A DNA stretch of 33,853 nucleotides. Source: Planctomycetaceae bacterium (GTDB taxonomy: Bacteria > Planctomycetota > Phycisphaerae > Phycisphaerales > SM1A02). The stretch is from the NCBI GenBank assembly GCA_021297795.1, contig JAJTGL010000040.1:1-33853 (forward strand). The letters are read 5' to 3'. Shown here one piece after another: positions 468 through 26,976 of the stretch. The translations under genes were made by a program, and so were the position numbers. Under the pieces are notes generated by a model, which saw nothing but the letters and a program-made list of their open reading frames with translations, was not told the origin of the DNA and made no database searches. How positions within the stretch are numbered: the stretch's first letter is position 1; each line of letters opens with the position of its first letter.

Positions 468-476
468 AGGGCGGAG

Positions 477-482
477 ATGATA
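477..482 (-). promoter_or_regulatory. -10 hexamer TATCAT, 9 bases before the CoA-transferase ATG
   Basis: On the minus strand TATCAT is followed by CTCCGCCCT and then the ATG at 467. Predicted transcription start falls within about 3 bases of the start codon, which would make the mRNA leaderless or nearly so. No convincing -35 box. This is one of a recurring set (see findings). Confidence 0.45.
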
Positions 483-525
483 GGGGAGAGGCCGCGCGGG
501 GAGGTGAAACGAGGAGTCGGTTCGC

Positions 526-531
526 TATCCT
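526..531 (+). promoter_or_regulatory. -10 hexamer TATCCT, 9 bases before the aldehyde dehydrogenase ATG
   Basis: TATCCT is followed by GCCTGCCCA and the ATG at 541. It is diverged from the CoA-transferase hexamer by about 45 bases, so both genes are probably driven from this 73-base gap. No Shine-Dalgarno lies in the gap at usable distance. The -35 region is weak (GTGAAA at 504-509). Confidence 0.45.
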
Positions 532-540
532 GCCTGCCCA

Positions 541-2106
541 ATGCCCTCTTCCACGTCCTCGCCCATGCACCCCGTCCTCACCCGCCTCGGACTTGCGAAC
601 AGCCCGCGCCTCTGCGCGCCGGGAACTCCCAACTCGGTGACGAGCGACAACCCGGCGACCGGCGAGCCGCTCGCGGGCGTGCGGCTCGAGTCGCGCGCCG
701 ACTACGAGAGCGCCGTCGCGCGCGCCGTGAAGGCGCAGGCCTCCTGGCGTCAGCTTCCCGCGCCGAAGCGCGGCGAGATCGTGCGCCGGATGGGCAACGC
801 GTTCCGCGACATGAAGGAGCCGCTCGGCGAACTCGTGACGCTCGAGATGGGCAAGATCAAGGCCGAAGGCCTCGGCGAGGTGCAGGAATCGGTCGACATC
901 GCCGACTTCGCGGTCGGCCTCTCGCGCCAGCTCTACGGCCTCACGATGCACTCCGAGCGCCCGGGCCACCGCATGTACGAGCAGTGGCAGCCGCTTGGCG
1001 TGGTCGGCTGCATCACGGCGTTCAACTTCCCGAACGCCGTGTGGGCGTGGAACGCGATGCTCGCGGCCGTCTGCGGCGACGCGGTGATCTGGAAGCCTTC
1101 GCTGGTGACGCCGCTCACAGCGATCGCGACCAGCGAGATCTGCTGGAAGGTGCTGCGCGAGCAGGATCTCTGGCGACCCGAGGGGATCGACCCGGCGGAT
1201 CTCTTCCCGCTCATCATCGGCACCGATGCCGAGGTGGGCGAAACGATGGTCGCTGACCGACGGTTGCCGCTGATCTCGGCGACGGGCTCGTGCCGCATGG
1301 GCCGGCGTGTCGGTGAAGTCGTCGCGAAGCGCCTCGGACGCTGCCTCCTCGAACTTGGCGGCAACAACGCGATCATCGTGATGGACGACGCCGACATGGA
1401 GATGGTGGTGCGAGCCGTGCTCTTCGGCTCGGTGGGCACCGCTGGCCAGCGCTGCACGACGACGCGGCGCCTCCTCGTCCACGAGAAGGTGGTCGACGAC
1501 CTCTGCGCGCGCCTCGCGAAGGCGTACAAGAACGTGCCGATCGGCGACCCGCTCGCGGCGGGCACGTTGATGGGGCCGCTTGTGAACGCACAGGCGGTCG
1601 CAGGCATGCGGCATGCGTGCAGCGAGGCCGACCGCGAGGGCTGCCACCTGCTCGCAGGTGGTGTGGCGGGCATCGACCGGTTCGCGGGCAAGCCCGGCAA
1701 TTTCGTCGAGCCCACGCTCTACCGCGTGCCGAAGGGCGGCCGCCCGCGCATCTGCTGCGAGGAGACCTTTGCGCCGATTCTCTACGTGTACTCCGTGTCG
1801 AGCATCGACGAGGCGATCGAGATCCAGAACTCGGTCGACCAGGGGCTGTCGAGCGCGATCTTCACGCTGAACATGCGCAGCGCCGAGCGCTTCCTCTCGA
1901 CCGAGGGCTCGGACTGCGGCATCGCGAACGTGAACATCGGCACATCGGGCGCCGAGATCGGTGGAGCGTTCGGCGGCGAGAAGGACACTGGCGGCGGGCG
2001 CGAGTCGGGCTCGGACAGCTGGAAGCAGTACATGCGTCGCCAGACCTGCACGATCAACTGGTCGAAGGACCTGCCGCTCGCGCAGGGGATCAAGTTCGAC
2101 ATCTGA
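541..2106 (+). CDS. ALDH7-type aldehyde dehydrogenase (alpha-aminoadipate semialdehyde / piperideine-6-carboxylate dehydrogenase-like)
   Basis: NAD(P)-dependent aldehyde dehydrogenase, 521 residues. Seen in sequence: the N-terminal DNPATGEPLAGVR block, the cofactor-site FNFPNAVW (161-168, with the oxyanion Asn at 162), general base Glu271 in LELGGNNAIIV, nucleophile Cys305 in GTAGQRCTTTRRL, then NFVEPTL and EETFAPILYV. The C-terminal NIGTSGAEIGGAFGGEKDTG stretch followed by GRESGSDSWKQYMRR is characteristic of the ALDH7 (antiquitin) subfamily, which oxidises L-2-aminoadipate-6-semialdehyde in lysine degradation. The divergent CoA-transferase fits an amino-acid or short-chain acid catabolic setting, but that link is inference. 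ATG at 541 is chosen because a TATCCT hexamer lies 9 bases upstream. A second Met at residue 9 is possible. Substrate is assigned by subfamily only. Confidence 0.85.
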   Translation: MPSSTSSPMHPVLTRLGLANSPRLCAPGTPNSVTSDNPATGEPLAGVRLESRADYESAVARAVKAQASWRQLPAPKRGEIVRRMGNAFRDMKEPLGELVTLEMGKIKAEGLGEVQESVDIADFAVGLSRQLYGLTMHSERPGHRMYEQWQPLGVVGCITAFNFPNAVWAWNAMLAAVCGDAVIWKPSLVTPLTAIATSEICWKVLREQDLWRPEGIDPADLFPLIIGTDAEVGETMVADRRLPLISATGSCRMGRRVGEVVAKRLGRCLLELGGNNAIIVMDDADMEMVVRAVLFGSVGTAGQRCTTTRRLLVHEKVVDDLCARLAKAYKNVPIGDPLAAGTLMGPLVNAQAVAGMRHACSEADREGCHLLAGGVAGIDRFAGKPGNFVEPTLYRVPKGGRPRICCEETFAPILYVYSVSSIDEAIEIQNSVDQGLSSAIFTLNMRSAERFLSTEGSDCGIANVNIGTSGAEIGGAFGGEKDTGGGRESGSDSWKQYMRRQTCTINWSKDLPLAQGIKFDI

Positions 2107-2409
2107 GCGCCTGTGGCGTGCGTCGCGCGCGTCCACCGTCGATGGATCGACTCCGACGTCCGGTGTTCCCGGGATCGCATCCCGGAGTGCGTGGTCGTTG
2201 CGGGTGCGTGCCCATCGCATGGCTGAAGCCGACCAACGTCGTCACCGCCAGAGCGAGTCGCCGCAGCGGCGAGCGCTTCGATCCAGTCCCCGGAACGGAT
2301 GACGCGATCCGTTGACAGGCCATGCGAAACGAAACACCCGGCTGGCATGCGCCAGCCGGGTGTCGGTGGATCGATCGAGTGCGTCGCGCGGCAACGCCCG
2401 CGCGGTGAC
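2107..2409. other. Convergent non-coding gap with two hairpins
   Basis: About 300 bases between the aldehyde dehydrogenase stop and the cyclophilin stop. No open frame here has gene-like composition. It holds a 7-bp hairpin, CCGGGAT (2169-2175) pairing with ATCCCGG (2179-2185), without a T-tract, which may end the plus-strand transcript. A much stronger hairpin at 2334-2363 is listed separately. Nothing else recognised. Confidence 0.6.
2334..2363 (-). terminator. Rho-independent-like terminator of the cyclophilin gene
   Basis: Perfect 13-bp inverted repeat: ACACCCGGCTGGC (2334-2346), 4-base loop ATGC, GCCAGCCGGGTGT (2351-2363). Read on the minus strand it is followed by TTCGTTTCG, a T-rich stretch, about 45 bases after the cyclophilin stop at 2410. 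It can also stop plus-strand readthrough from the aldehyde dehydrogenase, but without a T-tract on that side. Confidence 0.75.
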
Positions 2410-3207
<798 letters not shown>

Positions 3208-3241
3208 GGTCGATTCTCGGGGTTTCTCGAACGGGACGTCG

Positions 3242-3247
3242 ATGATA
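3242..3247 (-). promoter_or_regulatory. Candidate -10 hexamer of the cyclophilin gene
   Basis: Minus-strand TATCAT, 34 bases before the ATG at 3207, followed by a TCCC run as in the other TANNNT promoters of this window. No good -35 seen. Diverges from a TAGCAT at 3318-3323. Confidence 0.35.
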
Positions 3248-3317
3248 CCGGGGCCGCGGCGTTCCGCGGATGCGAGGAGGGTGCCCGTAATCCGCAACGC
3301 GCGGGGGCCTTGTCGCG

Positions 3318-3323
3318 TAGCAT
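3318..3323 (+). promoter_or_regulatory. Candidate -10 hexamer upstream of the ResB gene
   Basis: TAGCAT followed by CGCACCCCCC, matching the TANNNT plus C-rich pattern. It would give a leader of about 130 bases before the ATG at 3458. Alternatively an in-frame ATG at 3344 would shorten the leader, but it adds residues unlike ResB. Confidence 0.3.
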
Positions 3324-3457
3324 CGCACCCCCCGGCACGACGCATGGCCGAGCCGTTCGATTCCATGCGTCACCGGGCCAGGTGCAGCCACCGCTTCACT
3401 TGCTCGCCCGTGTCCGACCAGCGCGCCGCGCGCGCAACCTCCGAAGACCATCGACGC

Positions 3458-6018
3458 ATGACGCCTCCGAACGAATCGACCGCGGGCAGCGCTCCCAACA
3501 CCAGCACGCAGAAGCGGGGCGGTGCGGCCGCGCACGGCGCCGCCGCGGCGGGATCCGCCGAGGTCGCGCCCTGGTGGCGCAGCGGCGTGATCGGGTGGAC
3601 GCTCGACCTCTTCTCGAGCGTGAAGTTCGGCATCTGGCTCCTCGTGCTCCTCTTCATCTACTCGTCGGTCGGCAGCGCGGGCATCGTCTACCTCGACTTC
3701 GACGCAGGCACCTGGAACATCTTCAACCCGGAGAACTGGGCGCACGACCAGATCCGGCAGTGGCGCGGACTCGAGATGACCGAGTTCGAGTGGTTCCACT
3801 GGTGGCCGTTCGACCTCATGATGATCCTCATCGCGATCAACATCGCGGTGACCACGGTGCGGCGCATCCCGTTCAAGCCGGTCAACTACGGCGTCTGGAT
3901 GATCCACACCGGGATCCTCATCCTGATCGTCGGATCGTTCATCTACTTCGGCACCAAGGTCGAGGGCGACACGCCCGTCGCGCGCCGACGCGTGGTGGCC
4001 TCGTACGAGGAAGTCGCCGCCGATGGAACGAAGACGATGCGCGAGGTCGATTTCCTCGCGTCGCCGGGCGTGCGAGCGGTCTCGGGCGAGGGCGACGATG
4101 CGGTCGCCTTCGAGGTGACCACGATCGACCCCGACTGGGAACTCCTCACGGGCGACGACAAGGGCAAGCGCGCCTACAGCGTGACCGTGGCCGTGACGCG
4201 CGGCGAGAAGCGCTACATGCGGCAGCTGCTCGTGGGCTATCCCCAGCTGACGGAAGACCTCATCTTCACGGACGACCCGCAGCAGCCGATGAAGCGCTCG
4301 GTCAAGGAGACCGGGAAGCCCATCTTCGACGAGACGATGGCGATGCGGCTCGACTACGAGCCCCAGGGCCACTTCTACCTGCGCAACGAACTGGTGAAGT
4401 CCTGGGCGCTCTACGTTCGGAAGCCCGGCGAGGGAGCATGGGTCGAGCGTCCCATCGAGGGCCTTCCGCTCTACAACGACTACATCGGCGACCGAGAGCT
4501 CGTCTTCCAGCAGCCGGGAGACACGCTGCTCCCGCTCGACCCGCTCGACGTCGCCGTCCCTGCCACCGATCCGGCCGATCCGTTCCCCGACGTCGAGTTC
4601 CGCGTGAACGGGTACCTGCGCTATGCCGAGGAGCGCAGCATGTTCATGGAGGGGCCGCCAACCGGTCCACTCAATCCGTACGCGCTCCTCTCGGTGGCGA
4701 GCGATCGCGGCCAGCGCGAGGACTACGACCTGCTCGCGCGCGATCCCGACCGATCGGTCGCCGACGGCGGCGTGCTGCGCTTCGCCACCATCTCGGACGA
4801 GGCGCAGTTCGCGCAGTTCATGCGGCAGCCGTCCGTCGTGATCCGCATCCCCGCGAAGGGAATCGAGATCCGCGAGGAGATCCGTGACGTCGCCGCCGCC
4901 AATCCCGACGCACCGTTCGTCGAGATCAAGGGCACCGAGGAGGATGGCAAGGCCGCCTACGCGTATCGCGTGATGAACGTGCGCGACAACGTGCCGATCG
5001 GCAGCGCGTCCGTCTCCGTCGCGATCCTCGAGGTGCGCACTCCGAAGGGCCTGTTCCGTCGCTGGGTGTTCAGCGATCCGTCGCTCACGCGCGACGTCGT
5101 GCAGCCCGATGCATCGGATGCGCATGGCGCGCCGAAGATGCAGGACGACTCGATCGAGACGCTCTACGAGCCGGGCAACGGCCTGGCCCTCGTGATGCTC
5201 GTGCACGGCCCCGGCGAGGAGCGCCTTCGCCTCATCAGTGCGATCGGTCCCGAGACGAGCGTGTTCGAGGTCAAGGAGCGCGAGGCCATATCGCTCCCCG
5301 CGGGCATCACCGTCGGGGTGAAGGAGTTCATCCCCCGTGCCGTCCTCGAGACGCGGCCGATCGTGGTGCCGCGGGAGCAGCGCGAGCGCGACCTGATGGA
5401 GATGCTCTCGAAGGCCCTCGTGTCCGCGCCCGGGTCGGACGCCCGTTGGATTCCGTTCACGCGCTGGGTCTTCGAGGGGCCCGAGTACGTGCTGCGCCGC
5501 TCGCCCTATTCGCCGCGCCTCCTGCGGCTCGCGGATGGACGCGAGGTCGAGGTGCTCTTCTCGCGTCAGAGGCTTCCGCTGCGCACCGACGTGGCGCTCG
5601 ACGAGTTCGTGCTGACCTCGCACCAGGGTGGCTTCACCGGTGCGATGGGCACGATCCGCGACTACACGAGCCGCGTGCGATTCCGCGACGGAGGCGCGTC
5701 GGGCGCGTGGACCGAGCCTGTCGAGGTCAGCGTCAACGCGCCGATCGAGCACGATGGGCTGTGGTACTTCCAGGCGCAGTGGGATCCGCCCGAGGCCGCG
5801 GCGAACGAGCGCACGCGCCCGAGCGCCGGTCTCAACTACACCGTGCTCGGCGTCGGCAACCGGAACGGCGTGTACACGCAGCTCCTCGGATGCGTGATCG
5901 CGGTGGCGGGCATGATCTACGCGTTCTACGTGAAGCCGGTGATCAAGCGGCGTCGGCAGGAGGAGGTCCTCGCGGGCCTACCGCGCGGCGATCGCCGCGG
6001 TTCGAAGGAGGTGACGGC

Positions 6019-6022
<4 letters not shown>
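3458..6022 (+). CDS. ResB-like cytochrome c biogenesis membrane protein
   Basis: Half of the system II (Ccs) cytochrome c maturation machinery, which carries haem across the membrane and attaches it to apocytochromes. 854 residues from ATG 3458. A Gly/Ala-rich N-terminus is followed by TM1 at about 55-77, TM2 at 118-134 and TM3 at 145-164 (YGVWMIHTGILILIVGSFIY, with the His typical of ResB). A very long periplasmic region follows, then a last TM near 815-835 and a basic cytoplasmic end (KPVIKRRR). The ResB C-terminal fold is visible in the FTGAMGTIRDYTSRVRF and WYFQAQWDPP blocks. It overlaps the CcsA gene by 4 bases (ATGA), so the two are translationally coupled. Start choice: the first Met after a poorly conserved, Arg-rich upstream stretch. 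It is longer than classical ResB (about 540), as in many planctomycete and Bacteroidetes versions. Confidence 0.85.
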
Positions 6023-9320
<3,298 letters not shown>

Positions 9321-9365: not shown

Positions 9366-11087
9366 TCATCCCCGGAAGATCGCGCCGGCCTTCTTGCCGA
9401 CGAGCGCCGCGGCGGTCGCAAGAGCGACGCCGAGAAATGCCATCGCCCAGACTCCGAGCGCGCTGGCGACGCCGGGGCCGTCGCCGAGGCGCTCGGCGAG
9501 GGTGAAGATCGCCTTCGTGATCGGATAGTCGGCCTCGCGCTGCGCGAGGATGAGGCTGTCCGACACCTCGAGCATCGCGAAGCAGAACGCGAGGATCGCG
9601 CCCGCCGCGAGGTTCGCGGCCAGCAGCGGGAGCACGATCTTGCGGGTCACACGCCAGCGGCTTGCGCCGACGTTGAACGCCGCCTCCTCGAGTGCGACCG
9701 ACGTCTGTTCGAGTCCTGCCGCCGCCGAGCGGACGACGTAGGGGAGTCGCCGCACGGCGTAGGCGAGGATCAGGAACGGGATCGGGTTCGGATTGGCACC
9801 CAGGATGTTGCCGACCGATTCGAGCGGCCCGCCCGGCCCGAACGGCCAGCGGAGGCTCGCGGCGACAAGGCCGAACGCGAACACGAGACCGGGTACGGCG
9901 AGCGGCAGCATGACGAGCGCGTCGAGGACGCCGCGACCGCGCACCGTGCCACGCACGAGGAGCCGCGCGACGAAGAGCCCCACGACCACGTCGACGATCG
10001 TCGCGACGCCCGCGAAGATGATCGAGTTGCGCACGGCGCCCGCCGCCAGCGGATGCGAGATCGCCTGCACGAAGTGGTCGAGGGTCCAGCGCTCGGGGAG
10101 GATCGATCCGTACCACTGGCCGTTCGCGGCGAGCGCCGTTCCGATGACGCCGACGTGCGGCAGCATCGCGATGAGCGCGACCATGGCAAAGAGTCCGGCC
10201 GCGACGATGCCGGCGTTGCCGGTCAGCGGCTTGAGGCCTGCGCCTGCGCTCGCCTTCGCGAGCATCGCGTGGCCCTTCCCGCCGAGGATGAGCCGTCCGA
10301 CGGTGTAGGAGAGGATCGTCGCACCGAGCATCACCGCCGTCAGCGCGTACGGCTGCCGCGACGCCTCCATCTCCTTGATCCCGTTGAAGATCTGGACGGG
10401 CGTCGTCTTTGTGAACTCGAGCATGAGCGGCGTGCCGAGCTCGGTGAAGCTCCACACGAACACGATCGTGCCGCCTGCGAAGAGGCCGGGGCGGATCAGC
10501 GGCAGCGTCACGCGGAAGAAGCGCTTCACCTTGCCGGCACCGAGATTCGTCGCGGCCTCCTCCATCGAGGGGTCGAGGTTCGCGATCGCGGCCACGAGAT
10601 TGAGGTACAGGATCGGGAAGAGCGCCACGGCCTCGAGGAGGACGATGAGGAGGAACCCGCCCGTATGTAGGAAGTCGATCGGCTCCGAGATCGCGTGCAG
10701 ATCGAGAAGCAACGCGTTGACCGCACCTTCCCGTCCGAGCAGCTGCTTCATGCCGATCGCGCCCACGAAGGGCGGCAGGACCAGCGGAGCCAGGATGAGC
10801 GTGGAAAGCAGCGGCTTCCCCGGGAACGTGGCGCGCGCCGACAGCATGGCGAGCGGTAGTGCGATCGCGACGGCAACCACGGTGGTGCAGCAGGCGATGA
10901 GGAACGCGTTGCGGAGACCCTCGCGCAGCACCGGGTCGCGGAAGACGTTGAGGACGTGGAAGAGGGTCAGCGACCCGTCGTCGGCGACGAATGCACTCGC
11001 CACCCCGAGCCAGATCGGGTAGACGAGCGGCACTCCGACGACAAGGAGGAGCACCGCGAGCCAGATGCGCTGCGTCATGGGCCGCAT
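9366..11087 (-). CDS. ABC transporter permease, two fused permease domains (iron(III)-type)
   Basis: Inner-membrane permease of the binding-protein-dependent ABC importer family, closest in form to FbpB/SfuB iron(III) permeases. 573 residues holding two consecutive permease modules, each of about six membrane spans. The cytoplasmic EAA loops that dock the ATPase are both visible: EEAATNLGAGKVKRFFRVTL near residue 175 and EEAAFNVGASRWRVTRKIVL near 475. Substrate is inferred from fold only. Neither a solute-binding protein nor a matching ATPase is adjacent; the upstream minus-strand gene is a secreted subtilase-like protein. A TACCAT hexamer lies 9 bases before the first ATG, and no Shine-Dalgarno is present. 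Met4 is an alternative start. Confidence 0.85.
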   Translation of the reverse strand: MRPMTQRIWLAVLLLVVGVPLVYPIWLGVASAFVADDGSLTLFHVLNVFRDPVLREGLRNAFLIACCTTVVAVAIALPLAMLSARATFPGKPLLSTLILAPLVLPPFVGAIGMKQLLGREGAVNALLLDLHAISEPIDFLHTGGFLLIVLLEAVALFPILYLNLVAAIANLDPSMEEAATNLGAGKVKRFFRVTLPLIRPGLFAGGTIVFVWSFTELGTPLMLEFTKTTPVQIFNGIKEMEASRQPYALTAVMLGATILSYTVGRLILGGKGHAMLAKASAGAGLKPLTGNAGIVAAGLFAMVALIAMLPHVGVIGTALAANGQWYGSILPERWTLDHFVQAISHPLAAGAVRNSIIFAGVATIVDVVVGLFVARLLVRGTVRGRGVLDALVMLPLAVPGLVFAFGLVAASLRWPFGPGGPLESVGNILGANPNPIPFLILAYAVRRLPYVVRSAAAGLEQTSVALEEAAFNVGASRWRVTRKIVLPLLAANLAAGAILAFCFAMLEVSDSLILAQREADYPITKAIFTLAERLGDGPGVASALGVWAMAFLGVALATAAALVGKKAGAIFRG

Positions 11088-11096
11088 GGGCCGCGG

Positions 11097-11102
11097 ATGG
11101 TA
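11097..11102 (-). promoter_or_regulatory. -10 hexamer TACCAT, 9 bases before the ABC permease ATG
   Basis: Minus-strand TACCAT, then CCGCGGCCC, then the ATG at 11087. Same spacing as at 477-482 and 526-531. It implies a leaderless or near-leaderless transcript independent of the upstream gene. Confidence 0.45.
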
Positions 11103-16147: not shown

Positions 16148-18100
16148 TCAGGCGCCGCGCGCCAGTTCCGCCGCGATCCACGCATCTACATTGCGCTCCA
16201 GCACATCGAGCGGCAGCGGTCCCTGCAGCAAGACCGTGTCGTGGAAGCGCCGGATGTCGAACCGCTTGCCGAGCGCCGACTCCGCTTTCGCCCGCAGACG
16301 CCGGATCACGAGCTCGCCGATCTTGTATCCGCACGCTTGGCCGGGCCATCCGATGTAGCGGTCAACCTCGTTCACGATGTTCAGCTCGCTCAGCGCCGTA
16401 TTCCGCTTCATGAACTCGATCGCGCGCTCGCGCTCCCATCCGAACGCATGCATCCCCGTGTCGACGACGAGCCGGCATGATCGCCACATCTCGTAGAGCA
16501 GGCGGCCGAAGTCGTCGTACGGATCCTCGAAGAAACCCATCTCGATCCCGAGCCTTTCCGCGTAGAGCGCCCAGCCCTCCGTGAACGCCGTCGAGTCGAG
16601 GTCTTTGCGGAACTCGCGCACGCCGGCCAGTTCCTGCGCGAGCGCGATCTGGAAGTGGTGCCCCGGCACCGCCTCATGCAGCGAAAGCGGGATGAACTCG
16701 TACTTCGGCCGCTGGTCGAGTGCGTAGGTGTTCGCGTAGAACCAGCCCGGTTCGCCGCGCTGCGGGCTGCCCGGCTGGTAGTACGCCGTGGTCTGCGTCG
16801 GCGCCATGAAGCGCGGGATCTCGCGCACGCCGTAGGTGAGGCGGGGGAGCGTGCCGAACAGCGCCGGCAGCTTCGGATCGATCCGCTTGCACACCTCGCG
16901 ATAGCGGGTGAGCAGTTCCTCCGCGGTCGTGCAGTAGAAGCGCGGATCGCTGCGGAGGTAGGCGATGAAGGCGGCGAAACGCTCGTCCTCGGGCATCGCG
17001 GCGCGCGCCGGATCGGCGGCGAACCAGTCGGTGCGCGCGATCACCTGCATCATCTCGGCGCGGATCCGGGCCACCTCGGCCAGCCCCGTGTCGTGGATCT
17101 CCCGCGCCGACATGTCGGTCGTCGTATGGACGCGCAGCTGGTGCGCGTACCACGCGGCACCATCCTTCATCGCGCTCGCCCCGATCGACGCGCGGCACTT
17201 CGGCAGGTACTCGTTTGCGAAGAAGGCCTCGAACTCCGTCATCGCGGTGTCGATCGGATCGATCCAACGCTCGACCTCGGCACGCACGCGCGCGCGATCG
17301 TCGTCGGAGATCGTGCGCGGCATCTTCGCGAACGGCTTCCGCAACGCGTCGCCAACTCCCTGCCGCGCGGCGCGGATCTGCGCCGGCACGTCGACGATCG
17401 TCACGCTCGGCGGAACCACGCCTTCCTCGAGCCCGCGCCGCATCACCTCGATCGTCTGCCCGATCATCCCAGGCACGCCGGAGAGGCGCTTCGCGTAGGC
17501 CTCGTAGTCGTCGAGATCGGCGAAGGTCGCGAGATCTCCCATCTGCGGGATGTCGGTGTGCGGGCCGAAACGGCCGCCGACCGGCATCATCCAGCCGTTG
17601 AAGCGATGTCCATCGACCGAGAGCGCGAGCTCGCGCACGAGGAGATCGTGGTCAAGCCGGTCTCCGGCGCCAAGCTGCGTTGCGTCGATCGCCCGAAGGT
17701 CGTCGAGGAAGATCACGAGCTGCGCGTGTCGCTTCGCGATGCCCGCGATGGATGCGTCGGTCAGCTCGCCTGCGCGCGTCTCGTCGCCGCGTCGGAGCGC
17801 CATCTCGGGATACACCGTCAGGCGCCAGGCTTCGTACTCGCGAGCGATCGCGTCGAAGCGGGCGGTGGCTTCGCTCGATGGAGTCTCCTGCGGGGCCGAA
17901 GGGGGTGCGGCGACGAAACCCGATGCCGCCCCGTTTTGCGGCGAAAGCGCGGTGGATGCCGCGCCGGAAGCCAGCGCCCCGGCGAGATACCCCGAGACAG
18001 TTGCCGCAAGCGGCGCTGCCGCGCGGGCTTGCGCCGCGATCAGGAGGAGGGGGAGAAGCGAGAACACGGCGACCGGCGCGCGGAGATCGGAGCGGATCAT
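16148..18100 (-). CDS. DUF885 family zinc metallopeptidase-like exported protein
   Basis: 650 residues. The N-terminus is a signal peptide (VAVFSLLPLLLIAAQARA, residues 9-26), followed by an Ala/Ser-rich linker and then the DUF885 domain from about residue 78. The probable zinc site is HEAVPGHHFQ near residue 475, an HExxxGHH form typical of DUF885, and the downstream TEGWALYAERLG supplies a further acidic ligand. DUF885 proteins are related to gluzincin peptidases, and a few members have shown carboxypeptidase activity, so a periplasmic or surface peptidase role is likely; the substrate is unknown. The start is set by the signal peptide. A TAGGCT hexamer ends 6 bases before the ATG and there is no Shine-Dalgarno. 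It is divergent from the dockerin protein gene. Confidence 0.87.
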   Translation of the reverse strand: MIRSDLRAPVAVFSLLPLLLIAAQARAAAPLAATVSGYLAGALASGAASTALSPQNGAASGFVAAPPSAPQETPSSEATARFDAIAREYEAWRLTVYPEMALRRGDETRAGELTDASIAGIAKRHAQLVIFLDDLRAIDATQLGAGDRLDHDLLVRELALSVDGHRFNGWMMPVGGRFGPHTDIPQMGDLATFADLDDYEAYAKRLSGVPGMIGQTIEVMRRGLEEGVVPPSVTIVDVPAQIRAARQGVGDALRKPFAKMPRTISDDDRARVRAEVERWIDPIDTAMTEFEAFFANEYLPKCRASIGASAMKDGAAWYAHQLRVHTTTDMSAREIHDTGLAEVARIRAEMMQVIARTDWFAADPARAAMPEDERFAAFIAYLRSDPRFYCTTAEELLTRYREVCKRIDPKLPALFGTLPRLTYGVREIPRFMAPTQTTAYYQPGSPQRGEPGWFYANTYALDQRPKYEFIPLSLHEAVPGHHFQIALAQELAGVREFRKDLDSTAFTEGWALYAERLGIEMGFFEDPYDDFGRLLYEMWRSCRLVVDTGMHAFGWERERAIEFMKRNTALSELNIVNEVDRYIGWPGQACGYKIGELVIRRLRAKAESALGKRFDIRRFHDTVLLQGPLPLDVLERNVDAWIAAELARGA

Positions 18101-18106: not shown

Positions 18107-18112
18107 AGCCTA
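18107..18112 (-). promoter_or_regulatory. -10 hexamer TAGGCT, 6 bases before the DUF885 ATG
   Basis: Minus-strand TAGGCT, GCGTCC, then the ATG at 18100. With the standard distance the first transcribed base would be the A of the ATG. Confidence 0.4.
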
Positions 18113-19201: not shown

Positions 19202-19207
19202 TAGCAT
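19202..19207 (+). promoter_or_regulatory. -10 hexamer TAGCAT, 9 bases before the ACT-domain ATG
   Basis: TAGCAT, CCCCGCCCC, then the ATG at 19217. Same spacing and C-rich tract as at the other four genes with a 9-base gap. No Shine-Dalgarno. Confidence 0.45.
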
Positions 19208-19216
19208 CCCCGCCCC

Positions 19217-19687
19217 ATGGCCATGCTTCCATCCGACACCGAGATCGGCTACGCACCGCCGATGGTGCGGCATTTCAGCGTCTTCCTCGACAACCGCGTG
19301 GGCAAGCTCCTCGAGCTGCTCGCAAGTCTCGACGAGGAGGGTCACATCTCGGTCCGCGCGATCTCGATCCAGGACAGCTCCGACTACGCGGTCATCCGCA
19401 TGCTGGTCGATCGCCCTGCGACCGCGCGCGAGATCCTCGAGAAGCACCAGTTCGCGCTCTGCGAGACCGACGTGCTCGTCGCGGAACTCTCCAAGGACCA
19501 CGAGCTCCACCACCTCTGCAAGTTCCTGCTCGCCGCGGAGCTCAACATCCACTTCGCGTACCCGACCATGCCGAGGCCGGCGGGCGTCGCGACCGTGGTG
19601 CTTTCGACCGACGACAACACGCTCGCGGGCCAGATCCTGCGGCGGAAGGGGTTCCGCCTCTTCGGCGAGGCGGATCTCGAACACTGA
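19217..19687 (+). CDS. ACT-domain protein, probable amino-acid-responsive regulator
   Basis: 156 residues with two ACT-like halves. The first, residues about 16-80, reads VRHFSVFLDNRVGKLLELLA, then a strand and helix ending AVIRMLVDRP. The second, about 85-150, ends ATVVLSTDDNTLAGQILRRKGF. ACT domains bind small ligands, usually amino acids, and control enzymes or transport. A free-standing tandem pair resembles the ACT proteins often annotated as acetolactate synthase regulatory-like, but no partner enzyme is adjacent, so the ligand and target are unknown. The ATG at 19217 is supported by the TAGCAT hexamer 9 bases upstream. A Met at residue 16 would start exactly at the first ACT strand and is the alternative. 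Confidence 0.75.
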   Translation: MAMLPSDTEIGYAPPMVRHFSVFLDNRVGKLLELLASLDEEGHISVRAISIQDSSDYAVIRMLVDRPATAREILEKHQFALCETDVLVAELSKDHELHHLCKFLLAAELNIHFAYPTMPRPAGVATVVLSTDDNTLAGQILRRKGFRLFGEADLEH

Positions 19688-20018: not shown

Positions 20019-20058
20019 CGCCCGTCGGCGCCGTGCCGCAACGTCGCGCTCGCGCTGC

Positions 20059-21546: not shown

Positions 21547-21634
21547 GGCTTCGTACTCGTTGGTCTCCGCAGGGCGCGGTCGCGTCGCCCTGCCTTCGGT
21601 CCGGTCGTGGGCGGGTTCATGCCGCCAGCCGACT

Positions 21635-22501
21635 TCAGCACGGATATCGGCAACTGGTCTTGTCGGTCTCCCAAACCTCCACGCGGTGAAGCCGGGCGCC
21701 GCAGGCATCGAAGGCTGCCGCGAGGAGGCCGTGGCACACCCTTGCGATGTTCTCGACGGAGGGGTTGGTCGATGCGAATTCCGGGCAGTCGAGGTTCAGA
21801 TGGCGATGGTCGAAACGCGCCATGACCTCGGCATCGACCACCGCCTCGATCTCCGGGAATCCGAACGCGGTGCTCCGCCCATCGGCCGGGGGCGCGACTT
21901 CCACGCGGATCCGGTAGTTGTGCCCGTGGCCGTTCGGGTTGTTGCACTTTCCGAACAGCCGGCGATTCTCCTCGTCCGACCGGCCCGCGAGGTGCAGTCG
22001 GTGCGAGGCGGCGAACTCGAACGACTCGCAGAGAAGCGCGGTCGCGGCGGGGGCGAGGGGTGCATCGTGGTTCGGCATGCGTGTACTCGCGGCAGGGCTC
22101 GAGTCGGCGTCGCGCATCGACAGCAGACGCTCGATGCGGATCTCTCGGAACGGGTTGGGTCGGAAGGCAAGCGCGGTGAGCTCGACCGGGAGGGCTGCGG
22201 CCAGCGCTTCGGCCGCCTCGAGGACGAATGCGACAGGGTCGGTCGGGACCCCGGTCGTCGCCTCGCGTCTCAGGTGTGCGGCGATGCGGTCCGGAAGCGT
22301 TGCTCGGACGGCTCGATCGATCACGGTGATGTCGACGAGGTAGCCGCTTTCTCCGGGGTGCCCTCGGCAGGTCGCCGCAAACTCGCCGATCGCGCCAAGA
22401 CCGGGCGCAGGAGCGCCGACGAGTCCGTTCGAGCCCGTTCCCGCCGCGATGGCGGACATCGGAAGTCGGACGAGACGCGTGAGTTCGAGCGGGACCGTCA
22501 T
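21635..22501 (-). CDS. 6-pyruvoyl-tetrahydropterin synthase / 6-carboxytetrahydropterin synthase-like protein, two tandem domains
   Basis: 288 residues, about twice the usual 120-145 of QueD/PTPS enzymes. The C-terminal domain (about 157-288) is complete: the zinc ligands His167 in FAASHRLHL and His192/His194 in GHGHNYRIRVEV, catalytic Cys186 in FGKCNNPN, ARFDHRHLNLD, NPSVENIARV and WETDKTSCRY. This family converts dihydroneopterin triphosphate for queuosine or pterin synthesis. The N-terminal half follows the same outline (LELTRLVRLPMSA, CRGHPGESGYLVDITV, LTALAFRPNPFREIRIE) but has lost the GHGH pair, so it is probably a structural partner. This duplication reading is inference. The ATG overlaps the stop of the upstream open frame (ATGA), suggesting coupled translation. 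Confidence 0.82.
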   Translation of the reverse strand: MTVPLELTRLVRLPMSAIAAGTGSNGLVGAPAPGLGAIGEFAATCRGHPGESGYLVDITVIDRAVRATLPDRIAAHLRREATTGVPTDPVAFVLEAAEALAAALPVELTALAFRPNPFREIRIERLLSMRDADSSPAASTRMPNHDAPLAPAATALLCESFEFAASHRLHLAGRSDEENRRLFGKCNNPNGHGHNYRIRVEVAPPADGRSTAFGFPEIEAVVDAEVMARFDHRHLNLDCPEFASTNPSVENIARVCHGLLAAAFDACGARLHRVEVWETDKTSCRYPC

Positions 22502-23961
22502 GCGCTTGTCCCCGGGTGACGGTCGGCCGCCTGCGAAAGCGCGTGGTTGCGAGAGTGCTCAAGCGGATCGACGGGCGCAGCGAGGTGCCGGGCGGGGCGG
22601 TTCGCGCGGGAGCCCGCACGGCGCGGTTCGGGGAGAGCGACGCCCGACATTCCGGGACGCAGGCGCCCTCCGAGCGTCGAGACCGCGTTCGCGAGAGGCG
22701 GGAACAGAGCCTCGCCGAGCGCAGAATCAGGGAGAAGTTCGGGGGCAATTCGCAAGTCGGTGGCTTGACTGAACCGAAGACGGAGGTACCGTGTGCGGGG
22801 TAGGAAAACACCTACCCCCCAACTTGCCCCCGGAAGGGCTCGGCCTGAGGCTTTGTCTCGGCCGGGCCTTTTTATTTCCCTGTGGTCGATCTCGTCGGGT
22901 GCATGGGTCTGATCGGCTCGCCGCGCAAGACCCTCCGCACTGCCGGCACGCGAGTGTCGTGAGGTCTCGAACTTCTGGAGAACCGATCGGCGTCGAGACG
23001 TCCGTCGTCGCGATGGCTGTACGCCTGCGCTCGATGCCGGTCGAGCGAGGCGAAGCGTCAAGCGCGTGCCTGGCTTCGGCATCCGCTCGGTGAACGCTTC
23101 CCAGACTGGCGGAGCCACCGAGACCTGATCGGGAACCACGTCGACGGCGGCGATCGTCTCGTCGCCGAACGTCACCAGTCCGATGATCGAACCCGATCCA
23201 TCGGCGAGGTAGCGCTCGACGCCCGTGCGTCGGTCGGGGCGGAAGCGCGAACCTGCGAAGACGAAGTCGTTCGGCGGGAGCGCGTCGGTGTTGGGCGTGA
23301 GTGGCGACGCCCGCACGAAGTGGGTGAGAGGGTGCTCGGTGCCATCGGGCAGGACCACGGTGATGCGGATCGCGTCACCGGTCGGTGGTACGGCCGCGAA
23401 CTGCTGGTTGCCGTCGTTCGGCTGTCCCTCCGGCGGCGGCACCTCGCGCCAGCTGCCGGGAGCCCCCGGATTGAACCCCGCAAGAAGCAGCGCCGCGTGG
23501 AGTTCCCTCGCCTTTCCCTCGAAGACGAAGAGCGACTCGTGCTCGCGCGTCGAGGGGCTGCACACGTACTGCTCGAGGAAGCCGACCTCGAGGACGGACA
23601 CCGCTGCAAGTTCAAGCATCCCCCGCGCGCGGTCGACGCGGATCTGCGGGGTGAACTGGACGAACGCGGGTTCGGTCGCGACCGCGGAGCGCGCCGGAGC
23701 CTCGAGCGCGGCAGGCTCGTCGCGCGGGGCGGAAGGCTCCGCGGTGGCAGGGCTGGAGTCCGTGGCGACCCTTGGCGTTGGCGTCGGCGTTGGCATCGGC
23801 GTCGTTGTGGTCGGCTGCGGATCGCCTGCGTGCCTCGCCGGAGACCCGCTCGGACGCGCCGCACAGCCTGCCGGAAGGGTGGTGGCGGCGATCGCGACGC
23901 CGCACGAAAGCAGGAGCCCGATGCCGGCGGCCGTGCGCCTCCATGCCCGGCGAACGTTCAT
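22498..23961 (-). CDS. YdjY-domain lipoprotein, with an open-frame tail of doubtful coding status
   Basis: 487 residues from ATG 23961. The N-terminus is a lipoprotein signal (GIGLLLSC with Cys20, or LPAGC with Cys33), then a Thr/Pro linker. Residues about 100-305 match the YdjY-domain proteins of planctomycetes: LELAAVSVLEVGFLEQYVCS, SLFVFEGKARELHAALLLAG, the proline-rich loop, NDFVFAGSRF, then YLADGSGSIIGLVTFGDETI and PPVWEAFTERM. Function of the family is unknown. After about residue 308 (near 23035) the frame stays open to 22498 but becomes Arg/Ser/Pro-rich and resembles no family. It also crosses a plus-strand promoter, hairpins and terminator (22765-22877). In its favour, the stop overlaps the next ATG by 4 bases. 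The start overlaps the ruvC stop (ATGA). Confidence 0.7.
   Translation of the reverse strand: MNVRRAWRRTAAGIGLLLSCGVAIAATTLPAGCAARPSGSPARHAGDPQPTTTTPMPTPTPTPRVATDSSPATAEPSAPRDEPAALEAPARSAVATEPAFVQFTPQIRVDRARGMLELAAVSVLEVGFLEQYVCSPSTREHESLFVFEGKARELHAALLLAGFNPGAPGSWREVPPPEGQPNDGNQQFAAVPPTGDAIRITVVLPDGTEHPLTHFVRASPLTPNTDALPPNDFVFAGSRFRPDRRTGVERYLADGSGSIIGLVTFGDETIAAVDVVPDQVSVAPPVWEAFTERMPKPGTRLTLRLARPASSAGVQPSRRRTSRRRSVLQKFETSRHSRAGSAEGLARRADQTHAPDEIDHREIKRPGRDKASGRALPGASWGVGVFLPRTRYLRLRFSQATDLRIAPELLPDSALGEALFPPLANAVSTLGGRLRPGMSGVALPEPRRAGSRANRPARHLAAPVDPLEHSRNHALSQAADRHPGTSA
22765..22792 (+). promoter_or_regulatory. Sigma-70-like promoter of the small RNA candidate
   Basis: TTGACT (22765-22770), the best -35 box in the window, 16-base spacer, TACCGT (22787-22792). 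Predicted start at about 22798 coincides with the first bases of the first hairpin. Confidence 0.5.
22797..22877 (+). ncRNA. Candidate ~80-nt structured small RNA
   Basis: Three consecutive hairpins fill the interval. Hairpin 1 is GGGGTAGG (22797-22804), loop AAAACA, CCTACCCC (22811-22818). Hairpin 2 is GCCC (22826-22829) with GGGC (22836-22839). Hairpin 3 is CGGCC (22841-22845) with GGCCG (22860-22864), extended by GAG/CTC inside and AAGG/CCTT outside, followed by TTTTTATTT. A promoter places the start at hairpin 1. No plus-strand gene follows before the divergent strand's genes, so it is not an obvious leader. It lies antisense to the doubtful tail of the YdjY frame. I do not recognise the family. 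A leader or attenuator for an unseen short plus-strand peptide is the alternative. Confidence 0.5.
22834..22877 (+). terminator. Rho-independent terminator with U-tract
   Basis: Stem AAGG/CCTT, a small internal loop, then CGGCC/GGCCG and GAG/CTC with loop GCTTTGT, followed by TTTTTATTT (22869-22877). It is the clearest intrinsic terminator in the window and is oriented on the plus strand, where no annotated protein gene ends. Confidence 0.75.
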
Positions 23962-24491
23962 GCCACACCTCGCAGGCGGCGGCCGCCGCAGAGGGCGATG
24001 CCGATCGCATCGGCCACGTCCGGCGGCTCGGGTATCTCGGCGAGACCGCACTGCGACATCACCGCCCGCTGCATCTGCGCTTTCGACGCGTTGCCCTTGC
24101 CGGTGAGCGCGCGCTTCACTTCCGCCGGCGGGAGTTCGGCCACCGGAATCCCGCGGAGTTCCGCCGCGAGCAGCACCACGCCGCGGCCGTGCGCCATCTG
24201 GATCGCGGTGCGCGCATGGTCGACGTGCGAGAAGACCGCCTCGAGCGCCATGTGCGTGGGCGAATGCTCGGAAAGCAGCGCCGTGACATCCTCATAGAGT
24301 TGCCGCAGTCGTGCGGAAAGCGTGGCATCGGCGTCGAGTCGGAAGATGCCTGCGTCGACAATCGTGGCCGAACCGCGGCTGTCGAAGTCGACCACCGCGT
24401 AGCCCGCGATGCGCGTGCCGGGATCGATCCCGACCACGCGCGCATGGTTCTCCACCCGGGTCCATCCGCGACCGGGCTGCGTGGACCTCAC
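23958..24491 (-). CDS. ruvC: Crossover junction endodeoxyribonuclease RuvC
   Basis: Holliday-junction resolvase that cuts four-way DNA junctions at the end of homologous recombination, working with RuvAB. 177 residues from GTG 24491, close to the usual 173. The catalytic acidic set is present: Asp23 in VVGIDPGTRIAGYAVVD, Glu in MALEAVFSHVDHARTAIQMA, and the pair in PPDVADAIGIAL. The AEVKRALTGKGNASKAQMQ block is also diagnostic. Start choice: a GTG overlaps the stop of the ABC ATPase gene (GTGA) and has GGAGG 7 bases upstream; a GTG at 24455 is an alternative with 12 fewer residues. The stop overlaps the next gene's ATG. ruvA and ruvB are not nearby. Confidence 0.93.
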   Translation of the reverse strand: MRSTQPGRGWTRVENHARVVGIDPGTRIAGYAVVDFDSRGSATIVDAGIFRLDADATLSARLRQLYEDVTALLSEHSPTHMALEAVFSHVDHARTAIQMAHGRGVVLLAAELRGIPVAELPPAEVKRALTGKGNASKAQMQRAVMSQCGLAEIPEPPDVADAIGIALCGGRRLRGVA

Positions 24492-25270
24492 CGAACGGCC
24501 TCCGTGACGCGCCGCCGCCCGCCGCCGTCGCGATCGCTCTCGAGTTCGCCGTCCTTGAGCCGCACCACGCGCTGGCAACGGCCGGCGATGCGGTCGTCGT
24601 GGGTGACCATGATGAGCGTGAGTCCTCGCGAGTGGAGTTCCTCGAAGGTCTCGAGGATCGCCTGCCCGGTGTGCGAGTCGAGGTTGCCCGTCGGTTCGTC
24701 GGCCATCAGGATGGCCGGACTCCCGACAAGCGCGCGCGCGATCGCGGCGCGCTGCTGCTGGCCGCCCGAAAGCTCGCGTGGCCGGTGGTGCACGCGGTTC
24801 TCGAGGCCGACGAGCTTGAGCGCGTCGTGTGCCCGCGCGCGGCGGTCGGCGGCCGAGATCCCCTGGTAGAGCAGCGGAACCTCGACGTTCTCCGCGATCG
24901 AGAGCTCCGAGATGAGGTTGAACGCCTGGAACACGAAGCCGATCTTCTGTCCGCGCACGCGGGAGAGTTCGTCGTCGCCGAGGCTCTCGACCGCGGCCCC
25001 GTCGAGCTCGTAGACGCCCGAGGTCGGGCGGTCGAGGCAGCCGAGGATGTTCATCAGCGTCGACTTGCCCGAGCCCGAGGCGCCCATGATCGCGATGTAT
25101 TCACCGCGTGGAATCACGAGTTCGAGCCCCTTCAGCGCCTCGACGAGCACCGAACCGTCGGGCTTGAAGTAGGTCTTCTTGATGCCGTGGAGCCGCGCCG
25201 CGGGGGCGCTTGCGCGCGAGGAGGACGATGGGGTCGTCGAGCCGGGGGAATGGGACGGAGTGGCCGTCAT
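24488..25270 (-). CDS. ABC transporter ATP-binding protein, MacB/LolD type
   Basis: Cytoplasmic ATPase of the MacB/LolD/FtsE-like class, which powers lipoprotein release or peptide and antibiotic export together with FtsX-like permeases. 260 residues. A Ser/Pro-rich N-terminal extension of about 25 residues precedes the domain. Walker A is GASGSGKST (63-71), the Q-loop is VFQAFNLISELSIAENVEVP, the signature LSGGQQQR, Walker B ILMADEPTGNLDS, and the H-loop VTHDD. These match the subfamily closely. No permease or membrane-fusion gene is adjacent, so the partner must be elsewhere. The ATG at 25270 is supported by TACCAT 9 bases upstream; no Shine-Dalgarno. It heads a tightly packed minus-strand run with ruvC. 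Confidence 0.92.
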   Translation of the reverse strand: MTATPSHSPGSTTPSSSSRASAPAARLHGIKKTYFKPDGSVLVEALKGLELVIPRGEYIAIMGASGSGKSTLMNILGCLDRPTSGVYELDGAAVESLGDDELSRVRGQKIGFVFQAFNLISELSIAENVEVPLLYQGISAADRRARAHDALKLVGLENRVHHRPRELSGGQQQRAAIARALVGSPAILMADEPTGNLDSHTGQAILETFEELHSRGLTLIMVTHDDRIAGRCQRVVRLKDGELESDRDGGGRRRVTEAVR

Positions 25271-25279
25271 CGGGCGGCG

Positions 25280-25285
25280 ATGGTA
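25280..25285 (-). promoter_or_regulatory. -10 hexamer TACCAT, 9 bases before the ABC ATPase ATG
   Basis: Minus-strand TACCAT, CGCCGCCCG, then the ATG at 25270. It probably drives the whole overlapping run down to about 21635 or 20059. Confidence 0.45.
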
Positions 25286-25347
25286 GACGCTTCGGGCGTC
25301 CGGCGCGTGGTCGAGCGTCGCCCGCGCGGCGACCCGGGGCGATCCGC

Positions 25348-25353
25348 TACCTT
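25348..25353 (+). promoter_or_regulatory. -10 hexamer TACCTT, 6 bases before the trpE GTG
   Basis: TACCTT, CCCGGC, then GTG at 25360. With the standard distance, transcription would start at the G of the GTG. No leader peptide or attenuator is seen before trpE. Confidence 0.4.
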
Positions 25354-25359
25354 CCCGGC

Positions 25360-26976
25360 GTGTCCGAACACCAAGAGCACCCATCGTCGGCAGGATCGCC
25401 GCGTGGCGACCGCGTTCGTCACCTCAGGGCGTCGTTCGACGCCCAGCGAGCGGAGTCGCCGCTCGTCATCCTGTCGCGGCGCCTCATGAGCGACCAGCTC
25501 TCGCCGGTGCTCGCGTACCGGAGGCTCGTCCTGCCGGACGAGCGCACCGCGCCGAGCTTCCTGTTCGAGTCGGTCGAGAACGGGGCGACCGTCGGGCGAC
25601 ATTCGATCCTTGGTGCGCGACCGGTGCTCGAACTCTCGTCGCGCGCTTTCACGACCACGATCACCGACCATCGGCGCCGGACGCGCCGCACGCTCGAGTC
25701 GCGCGATCCGCTCGCGGTGCTCCGCGAGCTCGCTGCGCCGCTGCGTCCCGCGTCGGCGAAGGCGCTCGCATCGCTCGGACTGCCGGCGGCGTTCACCGGC
25801 GGGTTCGTCGGCTTCGCGAGTTTCGACAGCGTGCGCTACCTCGAGCCGGAGAAGCTGTCCTTCGAGCGGGCCCCGCGCGATGATCGCGGCATTCCCGACC
25901 TTCACTTCGGGCTCTACCAGGACATCGTCGTGTTCGATCACGTGTCGAAGACGATGCACGCGGTGGTCTCGGGCCGCGTCGACGACCATCCGACGTCTGA
26001 GCGCGCGTTCGACGCGCTCGTCGATCGCCTCGATGCGCTCGAGGCGCAGCTGGCTGCCGATGGACCGCGCCTCGCCCACGGCACGATCGAGATCGACCTC
26101 GCGCGGCGGCCCGAGCTCCCGCCCTCGAACATCTCGCGCGAGGATTTCGAATCGATGGTGCGCCGTGCGCAGGAGTACATCCGCGCGGGCGACGCGTTCC
26201 AGATCGTGCTCTCGCAGCGGCTCGAGCGACGGACCGCGATCGATCCCTTCGATCTCTACCGCGCGCTGCGCGTGGTGAACCCGAGCCCGTACCAGATCTA
26301 CCTGCAGGGCGAGGGCGCGATCCTCGTCGCGTCGAGCCCCGAGATTCTGTGCCGCGTGCACGGCGGCGTGGTGACGAATCGGCCGCTTGCGGGCACGCGT
26401 CCGCGCGGACGGACTCCCGAGGACGACGTGCGTCTCGAGCGCGAGCTGCTCGCCGACGAGAAGGAGCGCGCCGAGCACGTGATGCTGGTCGACCTCGGGC
26501 GCAACGATATCGGTCGTGTGTGCGAGACGGGGTCGATCGCGATCGAGCGCTGCATGGAGGTCGAGCGCTACAGCCACGTGATGCACATCTCGTCGACGGT
26601 GACGGGGCGCCTCCGCGACGGGTGCGATGCGTTCGACGCGCTGCGCGCGACGCTTCCGGTGGGAACCGTGTCGGGTGCCCCGAAGGTGCGCGCGATCGAG
26701 ATCATCGACGAGCTGGAGCCGACGCGTCGCGGACCGTATTCGGGCGGCATCGGTGCGATCGGCTACTCGGGCGACATGGATATCGCGCTCGCCTTGCGCA
26801 CGATGGTGATCCCGGTTCCCGACGGCGCGCGCGCCCCGTGGACGGTGCATCTCCAGGCGGGCGCGGGCGTCGTCCTCGACAGCGATCCCGCCGCCGAATG
26901 GCAGGAGACGGTGAACAAGGCCTCGGCGCTCGGTCGCGCGATCGATCTCGCGGAATCCGCGTTCGGCGGTGGGTGA
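25360..26976 (+). CDS. trpE: Anthranilate synthase component I
   Basis: Converts chorismate to anthranilate, with ammonia from a TrpG glutaminase subunit, as the first step of tryptophan synthesis. 538 residues from GTG 25360. The N-terminal regulatory part shows LSPVLAYRRL and FLFESVENG, the region that binds feedback tryptophan in the family. The chorismate-binding domain has FVGFASFDSVRYLEPE, AGDAFQIVLSQRLER, SSPEILCRV, PLAGTRPRG, EHVMLVDLGRNDIGRV, LPVGTVSGAPKVRA, YSGGIGAIGYSGDMDIALAL and QAGAGVVLDSDP. Start: the VILSRRLMSDQ stretch before LSPVLAYRRL aligns with the TrpE N-terminus, so the Met at 25486 is too late. The GTG has a TACCTT hexamer 6 bases upstream. trpG is not downstream; the next gene is convergent. 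Confidence 0.93.
   Translation: MSEHQEHPSSAGSPRGDRVRHLRASFDAQRAESPLVILSRRLMSDQLSPVLAYRRLVLPDERTAPSFLFESVENGATVGRHSILGARPVLELSSRAFTTTITDHRRRTRRTLESRDPLAVLRELAAPLRPASAKALASLGLPAAFTGGFVGFASFDSVRYLEPEKLSFERAPRDDRGIPDLHFGLYQDIVVFDHVSKTMHAVVSGRVDDHPTSERAFDALVDRLDALEAQLAADGPRLAHGTIEIDLARRPELPPSNISREDFESMVRRAQEYIRAGDAFQIVLSQRLERRTAIDPFDLYRALRVVNPSPYQIYLQGEGAILVASSPEILCRVHGGVVTNRPLAGTRPRGRTPEDDVRLERELLADEKERAEHVMLVDLGRNDIGRVCETGSIAIERCMEVERYSHVMHISSTVTGRLRDGCDAFDALRATLPVGTVSGAPKVRAIEIIDELEPTRRGPYSGGIGAIGYSGDMDIALALRTMVIPVPDGARAPWTVHLQAGAGVVLDSDPAAEWQETVNKASALGRAIDLAESAFGGG

Follow-up and report, generated by a model that had tools for sequence, protein, structure and literature searches.

Start-adjacent TANNNT boxes and purine-poor spacers point to leaderless genes in a genus of Phycisphaerales

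A stretch of 33,853 nucleotides of contig JAJTGL010000040.1 (assembly GCA_021297795.1, Planctomycetaceae bacterium, order Phycisphaerales), hereafter the window, contains seven genes with a hexamer TANNNT, hereafter the box, 6 or 9 bases before the start codon. In the host genome such boxes are concentrated 6–10 bases before ATG and GTG, and about one sixth to one fifth of the genes are probably leaderless, with pyrimidines behind the box steering the start of transcription to the purine of the start codon. The observations behind this reading are the profile of distances between box and start codon, a depletion of purines anchored to the box, conservation of the arrangement in orthologues and the scarcity of such genes inside operons.

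Sequences and Definitions

Gap denotes how many bases separate the last T of TANNNT from the start codon, and position n is the n-th base downstream of the box. The host assembly is metagenome-derived (3.2 Mb, 83% complete, 69% GC). The host sample, made up of 60 genome stretches and the window, comprises 1,125,694 bases (1.13 Mb), in which a purpose-written codon-usage caller identified 812 genes. In the same-genus set of 446 genes, some genes are represented by orthologues of several genomes, and the set is not fully independent. The negative control comprises 976,797 bases, mostly from Geobacterales, with 778 genes; two small outside controls were Deinococcus deserti plasmid 3 (300 kb, 261 annotated starts) and Rhodococcus jostii plasmid pRHL1 (400 kb). 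Gaps 16–20 and 0–4 served as controls in the per-gene counts. The genomes G184, G202 and G115, with 57 genes in total and 4 matches combined, were dropped from the analysis.

Distribution of Boxes before Start Codons

A box at gap 6–10 before an in-frame ATG or GTG was found in 165 of the 812 host genes, versus 17 at gap 16–20 and 6 at gap 0–4. The same-genus set repeats this result, with a box in 76 of 446 genes versus 15 and 5. At gaps 6, 7, 8, 9 and 10, the host has 68, 28, 23, 33 and 15 ATG/GTG candidates and the same-genus set has 23, 20, 12, 15 and 6. The host profile is characterized by a sharp edge and a peak at gap 6 (1 candidate at gap 5 versus 68 at gap 6, with 0–8 at control gaps) and by a shoulder at gaps 7–10, where 99 of 167 candidates are located, so that the gap is not narrowly near 6. 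In-frame ATG candidates in the 1.13 Mb number 1, 1, 0, 0, 0, 0, 52, 22, 21, 31, 11, 3 and 4 at gaps 0 to 12; the 52 at gap 6 compare with 0–5 across gaps 0–5 and 11–25.

The first-pass annotation, in which the seven boxes of the window were interpreted as marking a set of leaderless genes, had staked this interpretation on a genome-wide peak of TANNNT near starts. Such a peak exists, with a spacing of 6–10 rather than the fixed 6 and 9 bases that had been proposed. Gap 9 as a special distance was rejected, as the counts span gaps 6–10 and multiples of three carry a slightly higher background.

An artefact, with TANNNT and C runs arising from the 69% GC composition and the home-made gene calls, is hardly credible. 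The caller did at first under-call the congener G003 (20 of 262 genes with a box; 55 of 302 after a restart from the host codon model), and in-frame gaps have the raised background just mentioned. Against this, the non-start codons ATC and GTC have 0–2 TANNNT at gaps 6–9 and no peak; the profile is also present in any-frame counts made without gene calls, with TANNNT preceding ATG in the whole host genome 259, 93 and 24 times at spacings N6, N9 and N13, for which reversed-pattern controls gave 89, 94 and 70, in support of gap 6; in the Geobacterales negative control no peak was found (63, 95 and 106 of 778 genes at gaps 6–10, 16–20 and 0–4); and the conservation of the box in orthologues, described below, contradicts an artefact.

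Boxes and Genes of the Window

All seven boxes reported in the first-pass annotation were found again, five at gap 9 and two at gap 6, and its gene names are backed by Pfam. On the minus strand, the box TATCAT (477..482; pattern search, gap 9) and the gap ctccgccct (468..476; positions 7–9 all pyrimidine) precede ATG at 467 of the CoA-transferase gene (3..467; CoA_trans, 2.9e-40), which continues beyond the window edge. On the plus strand, the box TATCCT (526..531, gap 9) and the gap gcctgccca (532..540), without purine at positions 7–8 and with A at position 9, precede the aldehyde dehydrogenase (ALDH) gene (541..2106; Aldedh, 1.4e-124). The gene of the ABC transporter permease (9366..11087, minus strand; BPD_transp_1, 5e-25) has the box TACCAT (11097..11102, minus strand, gap 9) and the gap ccgcggccc (11088..11096, minus strand), while the ACT-domain gene (19217..19687, plus strand; ACT_8, 1.3e-09) has the box TAGCAT (19202..19207, plus strand, gap 9) and the gap ccccgcccc (19208..19216, plus strand). 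The fifth gap-9 box, TACCAT (25280..25285, minus strand), is followed by the gap cgccgcccg (25271..25279, minus strand; positions 7–8 pyrimidine, position 9 G) and by the gene of the ABC transporter ATPase (24488..25270, minus strand; ABC_tran, 2.2e-32), the start of which at 25270 is supported by orthologues. The two gap-6 boxes are TAGGCT (18107..18112, minus strand), before ATG at 18100 of the DUF885 gene (16148..18100, minus strand; DUF885, 9.8e-169), and TACCTT (25348..25353, plus strand), before the GTG start of trpE, encoding anthranilate synthase (25360..26976, plus strand; Chorismate_bind, 9.1e-88).

As had been described, the five gap-9 genes all have G at position 5 and CC at positions 7–8. 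The box consensus TANCWT given with this description misfits the ALDH gene, and TANCMT suits all five boxes.

The frame of the ABC ATPase gene is open up to ATG at 25384, and a longest-frame annotation would misplace its start; the box and the orthologues favour 25270. Two divergent pairs, CoA-transferase/ALDH (467–541) and ABC ATPase/trpE (25270–25360), have back-to-back boxes, with start codons about 70–90 bases apart. Five of the 32 genome-wide sites TANNNT-N4-GSCCN-ATG fall in the 34-kb window (0.34 expected; P 2.7e-5, uncorrected for window choice).

Purine Depletion downstream of the Box

At bases −3 and −2 before the start codon, purines account for 66 of 136 bases at gap 6 and for 10 of 112 at gaps 8–9 in the host (p = 3.4e-12), and for 24 of 48 and 5 of 62, respectively, in the same-genus set (p = 7.9e-7). 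Starts with Shine–Dalgarno (SD)-like sites have 53% purines at −3 and 42% at −2 (n = 379). Since purines make up about half of these bases at gap 6 and in genes with SD-like sites, and about 9% at gaps 8–9, the depletion follows the box and not the AUG. The same contrast makes it very improbable that the C tract is a signal for the ribosome, tied to the start codon as a C-rich or Kozak-like context and independent of start-site choice, although C is found directly before non-SD start codons in several phyla (PMC5397173) and base −1 is C-rich in all classes of host genes, including those with SD-like sites (0.53 C).

The whole run from position 7 to the start codon is pyrimidine in 22 of 28, 20 of 23, 20 of 33 and 7 of 15 host cases at gaps 7, 8, 9 and 10, the fractions at control starts being 0.56, 0.29, 0.12 and 0.06. 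With gaps 8–10 pooled, such runs were found in 47 of 71 host cases (11.6 expected), in 20 of 33 same-genus cases (6.9 expected) and in 4 of 37 cases in Geobacterales (7.0 expected). At 668 other TANNNT, positions 7–8 show little purine depletion (0.40, 0.47). Besides C, the run may contain T, as in the gaps cttccttcc and cccacccttc of ACT orthologues, so the shared feature is the lack of purine. The earlier suggestion of a C-rich tract as part of the signal was accordingly borne out, with the difference that the conserved feature is the absence of purines from position 7 on, of a length that tracks the gap, rather than a fixed GSCCN.

Base 1 after the box is also related to the gap: it is a purine in 60 of 96 host cases at gaps 6–7 versus 25 of 71 at gaps 8–10 (p = 5.8e-4). 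In E. coli, purine-rich discriminators favour upstream starts and pyrimidine-rich ones favour downstream starts (PMC5730371).

Conservation in Orthologues

Counts of orthologous loci include the window's own locus and exclude ALDH paralogues (L096–L100) and loci without N-terminal alignment. Among same-genus loci, the box of the CoA-transferase gene (TATCAT or TATGAT) is present in 15 of 15 (gap 9 in 10, gap 10 in 4, gap 8 in 1), with a pyrimidine run before ATG in all 15; that of the ALDH gene in 15 of 15 (14 TATCCT, 1 TAGTAT; gap 9 in 9, gap 10 in 4, gap 12 in 2); that of the ACT-domain gene in 15 of 15 (gap 9 in 11, gap 10 in 3, gap 7 in 1); that of the ABC ATPase gene in 15 of 15, at gaps 6–10; that of DUF885 in 12 of 13 (gap 6 in 7, gap 7 in 4, gap 8 in 1); and that of trpE in 14 of 15, at gap 6–7 and always before GTG. 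For the permease gene, the gap-9 signature was found, by coordinates, at the start of two same-genus copies (G002 and G003); the only two orthologues with readable upstream DNA, L187 and L188, both from other genera, have gap 6 before GTG. Across orthologues the start codon moves in steps of whole codons and the gap varies in steps of one base; the box is retained.

Shine–Dalgarno Sites, −35 Element and Genomic Context

Among genes without a box at the caller's start, 232 of 615 have an SD-like core, versus 83 of 615 in a control stretch, while genes with a box have one in 9 of 126 cases, versus 13 of 126 in the control stretch. The absence of SD sites noted earlier for the seven genes also holds for the box class at large, but it is partly built in, because the box occupies the SD position. 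In the window, AAGGAG- or AGGAG-like sites that the first-pass annotation had assigned to other genes were found for the cytochrome-c-assembly gene (6019), enolase and the S41 gene, while its motA gene was not identified; a site of this kind also precedes the ATG located 24 bases upstream of 32398 in a transketolase-like gene.

An altered anti-SD sequence was considered and rejected: the seven 16S loci recovered from relatives, including two of the same genus, all end in GGATCACCTCCTT, keeping CCTCC; the host assembly itself gave no 16S match. As boxless genes often have SD-like sites and the 16S 3' end keeps CCTCC, two routes of initiation would coexist.

No −35 element was found upstream of the 165 box genes; 1 of them has TTGAC and 6 have TTG at spacer 17. 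Box genes are divergent from their upstream neighbour more often than other genes (65/165 versus 147/647) and less often have a codirectional neighbour within 40 bases upstream (17/165 versus 171/647); the box class is depleted inside operons.

Spread among Related Genomes

The GSCC signature occurs 32 times in the host genome versus 3 for the reversed control, 265 versus 45 times in 15 congeners pooled, and 38 versus 73 times in ten other genomes of the order; among these 26 genomes, it is in excess only in this genus. For the looser YY version, a clear excess is restricted to the host genome and some of the congeners.

Boxes at gap 6 are in excess in other families as well. In G021, of the same order and another family, 30 of 315 genes have a box versus 8 and 10 at the two control gaps; the corresponding counts are 27 of 113 versus 3 and 5 in L187–L195, 25 of 317 versus 6 and 4 in G085, and 15 of 74 versus 0 and 1 in G188. 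The tract at gaps 8–10 was found in 5/11, 3/11, 7/12 and 3/9 cases in G021, L187–L195, G085 and G188, with 2.0, 2.5, 3.1 and 2.7 expected, numbers too few to decide. In G021 (L266–L285), the box peaks at gaps 5–6 (15 and 15) rather than 6–10, so that families differ in where the start window has its edge.

In a scan of the phylum, 54 of 197 genomes, from 22 of 77 families, had a gap-6 count of at least twice the gap-13 count and more than 5 standard deviations, and 72 of the 197 had no more boxes at gap 6 than at gap 13. The frame of gap 13 does not match that of gap 6, so the ratio may be inflated, and the scan is a lead only.

Affiliation of the Window

Among the matches listed, TrpE of the window matches contigs of metagenome-assembled genomes (MAGs) from ponds, lakes and similar sources at 78–88% identity, labelled Planctomycetaceae, Planctomycetota, Phycisphaera or 'uncultured bacterium', in agreement with Phycisphaerales. 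The remaining listed matches outside Phycisphaerales and other planctomycetes (43–48% identity; L197–L254) are mostly from Geobacterales or Desulfuromonadales. Two public contigs titled Limnohabitans and Candidatus Kuenenia (L178, L184) encode TrpE 86% and 83% identical to that of the window, and for this reason these MAG labels look wrong.

Proposed Mechanism

Read from the DNA, the boxes would be −10 elements of the sigma-70 type, recognized by the primary sigma factor (TANNNT, no clear −35) and so near the start codon that the mRNA would start on its A or G, and the ribosome would load on the 5'-terminal AUG or GUG. The observation of the first-pass annotation is thereby confirmed, and its interpretation of the boxes as marking leaderless genes is supported. 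A gap of 6 puts the start codon on position 7, the standard start site and the one preferred for transcription in E. coli (PMC5730371). At gaps 7–10, positions 7, 8 and onward would be kept pyrimidine, so that the polymerase would skip to the purine of the start codon. In general terms, the polymerase would start on the first purine from position 7 on, and selection would have made that purine the A or G of the start codon.

In Mycobacterium smegmatis, RTG at the 5' end is reported to be necessary and sufficient (PMC4633059), and a requirement of this kind would explain why selection should act against one to three extra 5' bases. In the host, boxes at gap 6–10 were found for 137 of 1018 ATG, 30 of 889 GTG and 3 of 263 TTG candidates. 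TTG candidates have little SD excess either (43 versus 36); TTG may hardly serve as a start, so the mycobacterial rule is not judged by it.

Several results weigh against this reading. E. coli seldom initiates farther than 2 bp downstream of the modal position 7 (PMC5730371), and gaps 9–10 strain the known range, because they require starts at positions 10–11, 3–4 bases past the usual one. A purine lies within the run in 13 of 33 gap-9 and 8 of 15 gap-10 host cases, including ALDH (A at position 9) and the ABC ATPase (G at position 9) of the window. Positions 7–8 are partly depleted of purines at TANNNT with gaps 13–40 also (58/190 versus 18/142, p = 1.2e-4). In the same-genus set the base-1 trend does not reach significance (16/43 versus 7/33, p = 0.21). 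The bare gap-9 pattern, with 93 occurrences, equals its reversed control, with 94, so that without the tract this count is not striking by this control, and the argument rests on the gap profile and the tract. The looser YY version is clearly in excess in 6 of 15 congeners, and several lower-GC congeners have none.

The main rival, clearly the less probable, is a short pyrimidine leader: transcription would start at C or U of positions 7–9, leaving 1–3 pyrimidines before AUG, and the tract would be a harmless, unstructured 5' end. The canonical position 7 does lie within the tract for gaps 7–10, starts past position 9 are rare in E. coli (PMC5730371), and Mycobacterium tuberculosis can start on any base, purines making up 85% (PMC3898074); moreover, two gap-12 ALDH orthologues have A at position 10, and a start there would leave a leader of three bases. 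The shape of the depletion, however, is better matched by an avoidance of start sites than by a general preference at the 5' end, with purines at positions 7, 8 and 9 of pooled gap-9 cases in 4/48, 4/48 and 13/48, that is, strongest at the favoured start positions and recovering by position 9. The RTG requirement at the 5' end in M. smegmatis (PMC4633059) also speaks against such leaders.

A further observation for which a start-site filter offers no explanation is the enrichment of a purine, mostly G, at position 5 (22/35 at gap 8, 33/48 at gap 9). Real boxes with transcripts starting about 5 bases downstream, on this purine, would give leaders of 4–6 bases. This is quite unlikely: starts at positions 5–6 would make genes with gaps 4–5 leaderless, yet the host has 1 of each versus 68 at gap 6, and at gap 10 the purine is present in just 7 of 21 cases.

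Within the preferred reading of starts at the start-codon purine, the long gaps may, as a tentative extension, represent a second class of leaderless promoters in the genus, in which a pre-scrunched open complex would read past the purine-free stretch to a start codon 8–10 bases after the box. The gap class is kept over evolution, with trpE and DUF885 at 6–8 and ALDH, ACT and CoA-transferase at 7–12, nearly all at 9–10; the class may therefore be a regulon, possibly one whose protein-coding genes share the sensitivity of rRNA promoters to ppGpp and initiating ATP. It may also require a polymerase or sigma factor whose start window lies farther downstream than that of E. coli.

Significance and Comparison with Known Systems

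The results extend leaderless expression with a clear sequence signature, as a probable trait, to a little-known freshwater lineage of planctomycetes. Since a leaderless start codon marks the start of transcription, uncultured genomes would be readable as experiments in start-site selection, and the purine-free stretch would be in vivo, evolutionary evidence on start-site choice by RNA polymerase. For annotation, a practical rule follows: in these genomes the correct ATG or GTG can be recognized by its box.

A C signal directly before non-SD start codons, as in the host, was described in a survey with one planctomycete species (PMC5397173); there C is regarded as context of the start codon, whereas in the host it follows the distance to the box. 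From that one species, the survey suggests leaderless mRNA and/or S1 in planctomycetes. By title or abstract, outside the subscription literature, no report of planctomycete leaderless promoters was found, and PMC5397173 is the sole, indirect hint. The main text of PMC3160421 does not mention Planctomyc or Rhodopirellula, and PMC12340547 does not mention Planctomyc.

Discriminator-dependent start selection is known from E. coli biochemistry (PMC5730371), and the base-1 shift with gap in the host has the same direction; for an uncultured planctomycete such selection would be read from the position of the codon, and in the same-genus set the shift lacks significance. The E. coli promoter rrnB P1, with a G+C-rich discriminator, requires a scrunched complex for its start, which lies 9 bases past the −10 box (PMC7822876), a geometry equal to that of the gap-8 class. 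Its own product is untranslated RNA and it has its own UP and −35 elements, whereas the host boxes precede start codons and have no −35 found. Host sequence at gaps 8–10 fits a geometry of this kind, with a predicted start at least 9 bases past the box.

The closest likeness is to the TA-led leaderless genes of bacteria, in which TANNNT lies some 12 bp ahead of the start (Zheng et al. 2011, PMC3160421) and known in Deinococcus (PMC12340547) and Actinobacteria (M. tuberculosis, PMC3898074). They share with the host genes the box, the gap-6 position, the lack of a clear −35, coexistence with SD genes and a bias to the first place in the transcription unit; the host differs by a large class with gaps 7–10 and a pyrimidine run from position 7. 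On D. deserti plasmid 3, annotated starts peak at gaps 5–7 (6, 14 and 5), with 2, 3 and 2 at gaps 8–10, and on R. jostii pRHL1 the peak is at gaps 6–7 (10 and 8), with 1, 1 and 2 at gaps 8–10; the long-gap class was not seen in these two small samples. The box-adjacent arrangement is already known in other bacteria, and its long-gap, purine-filtered version looks new within the literature searched.

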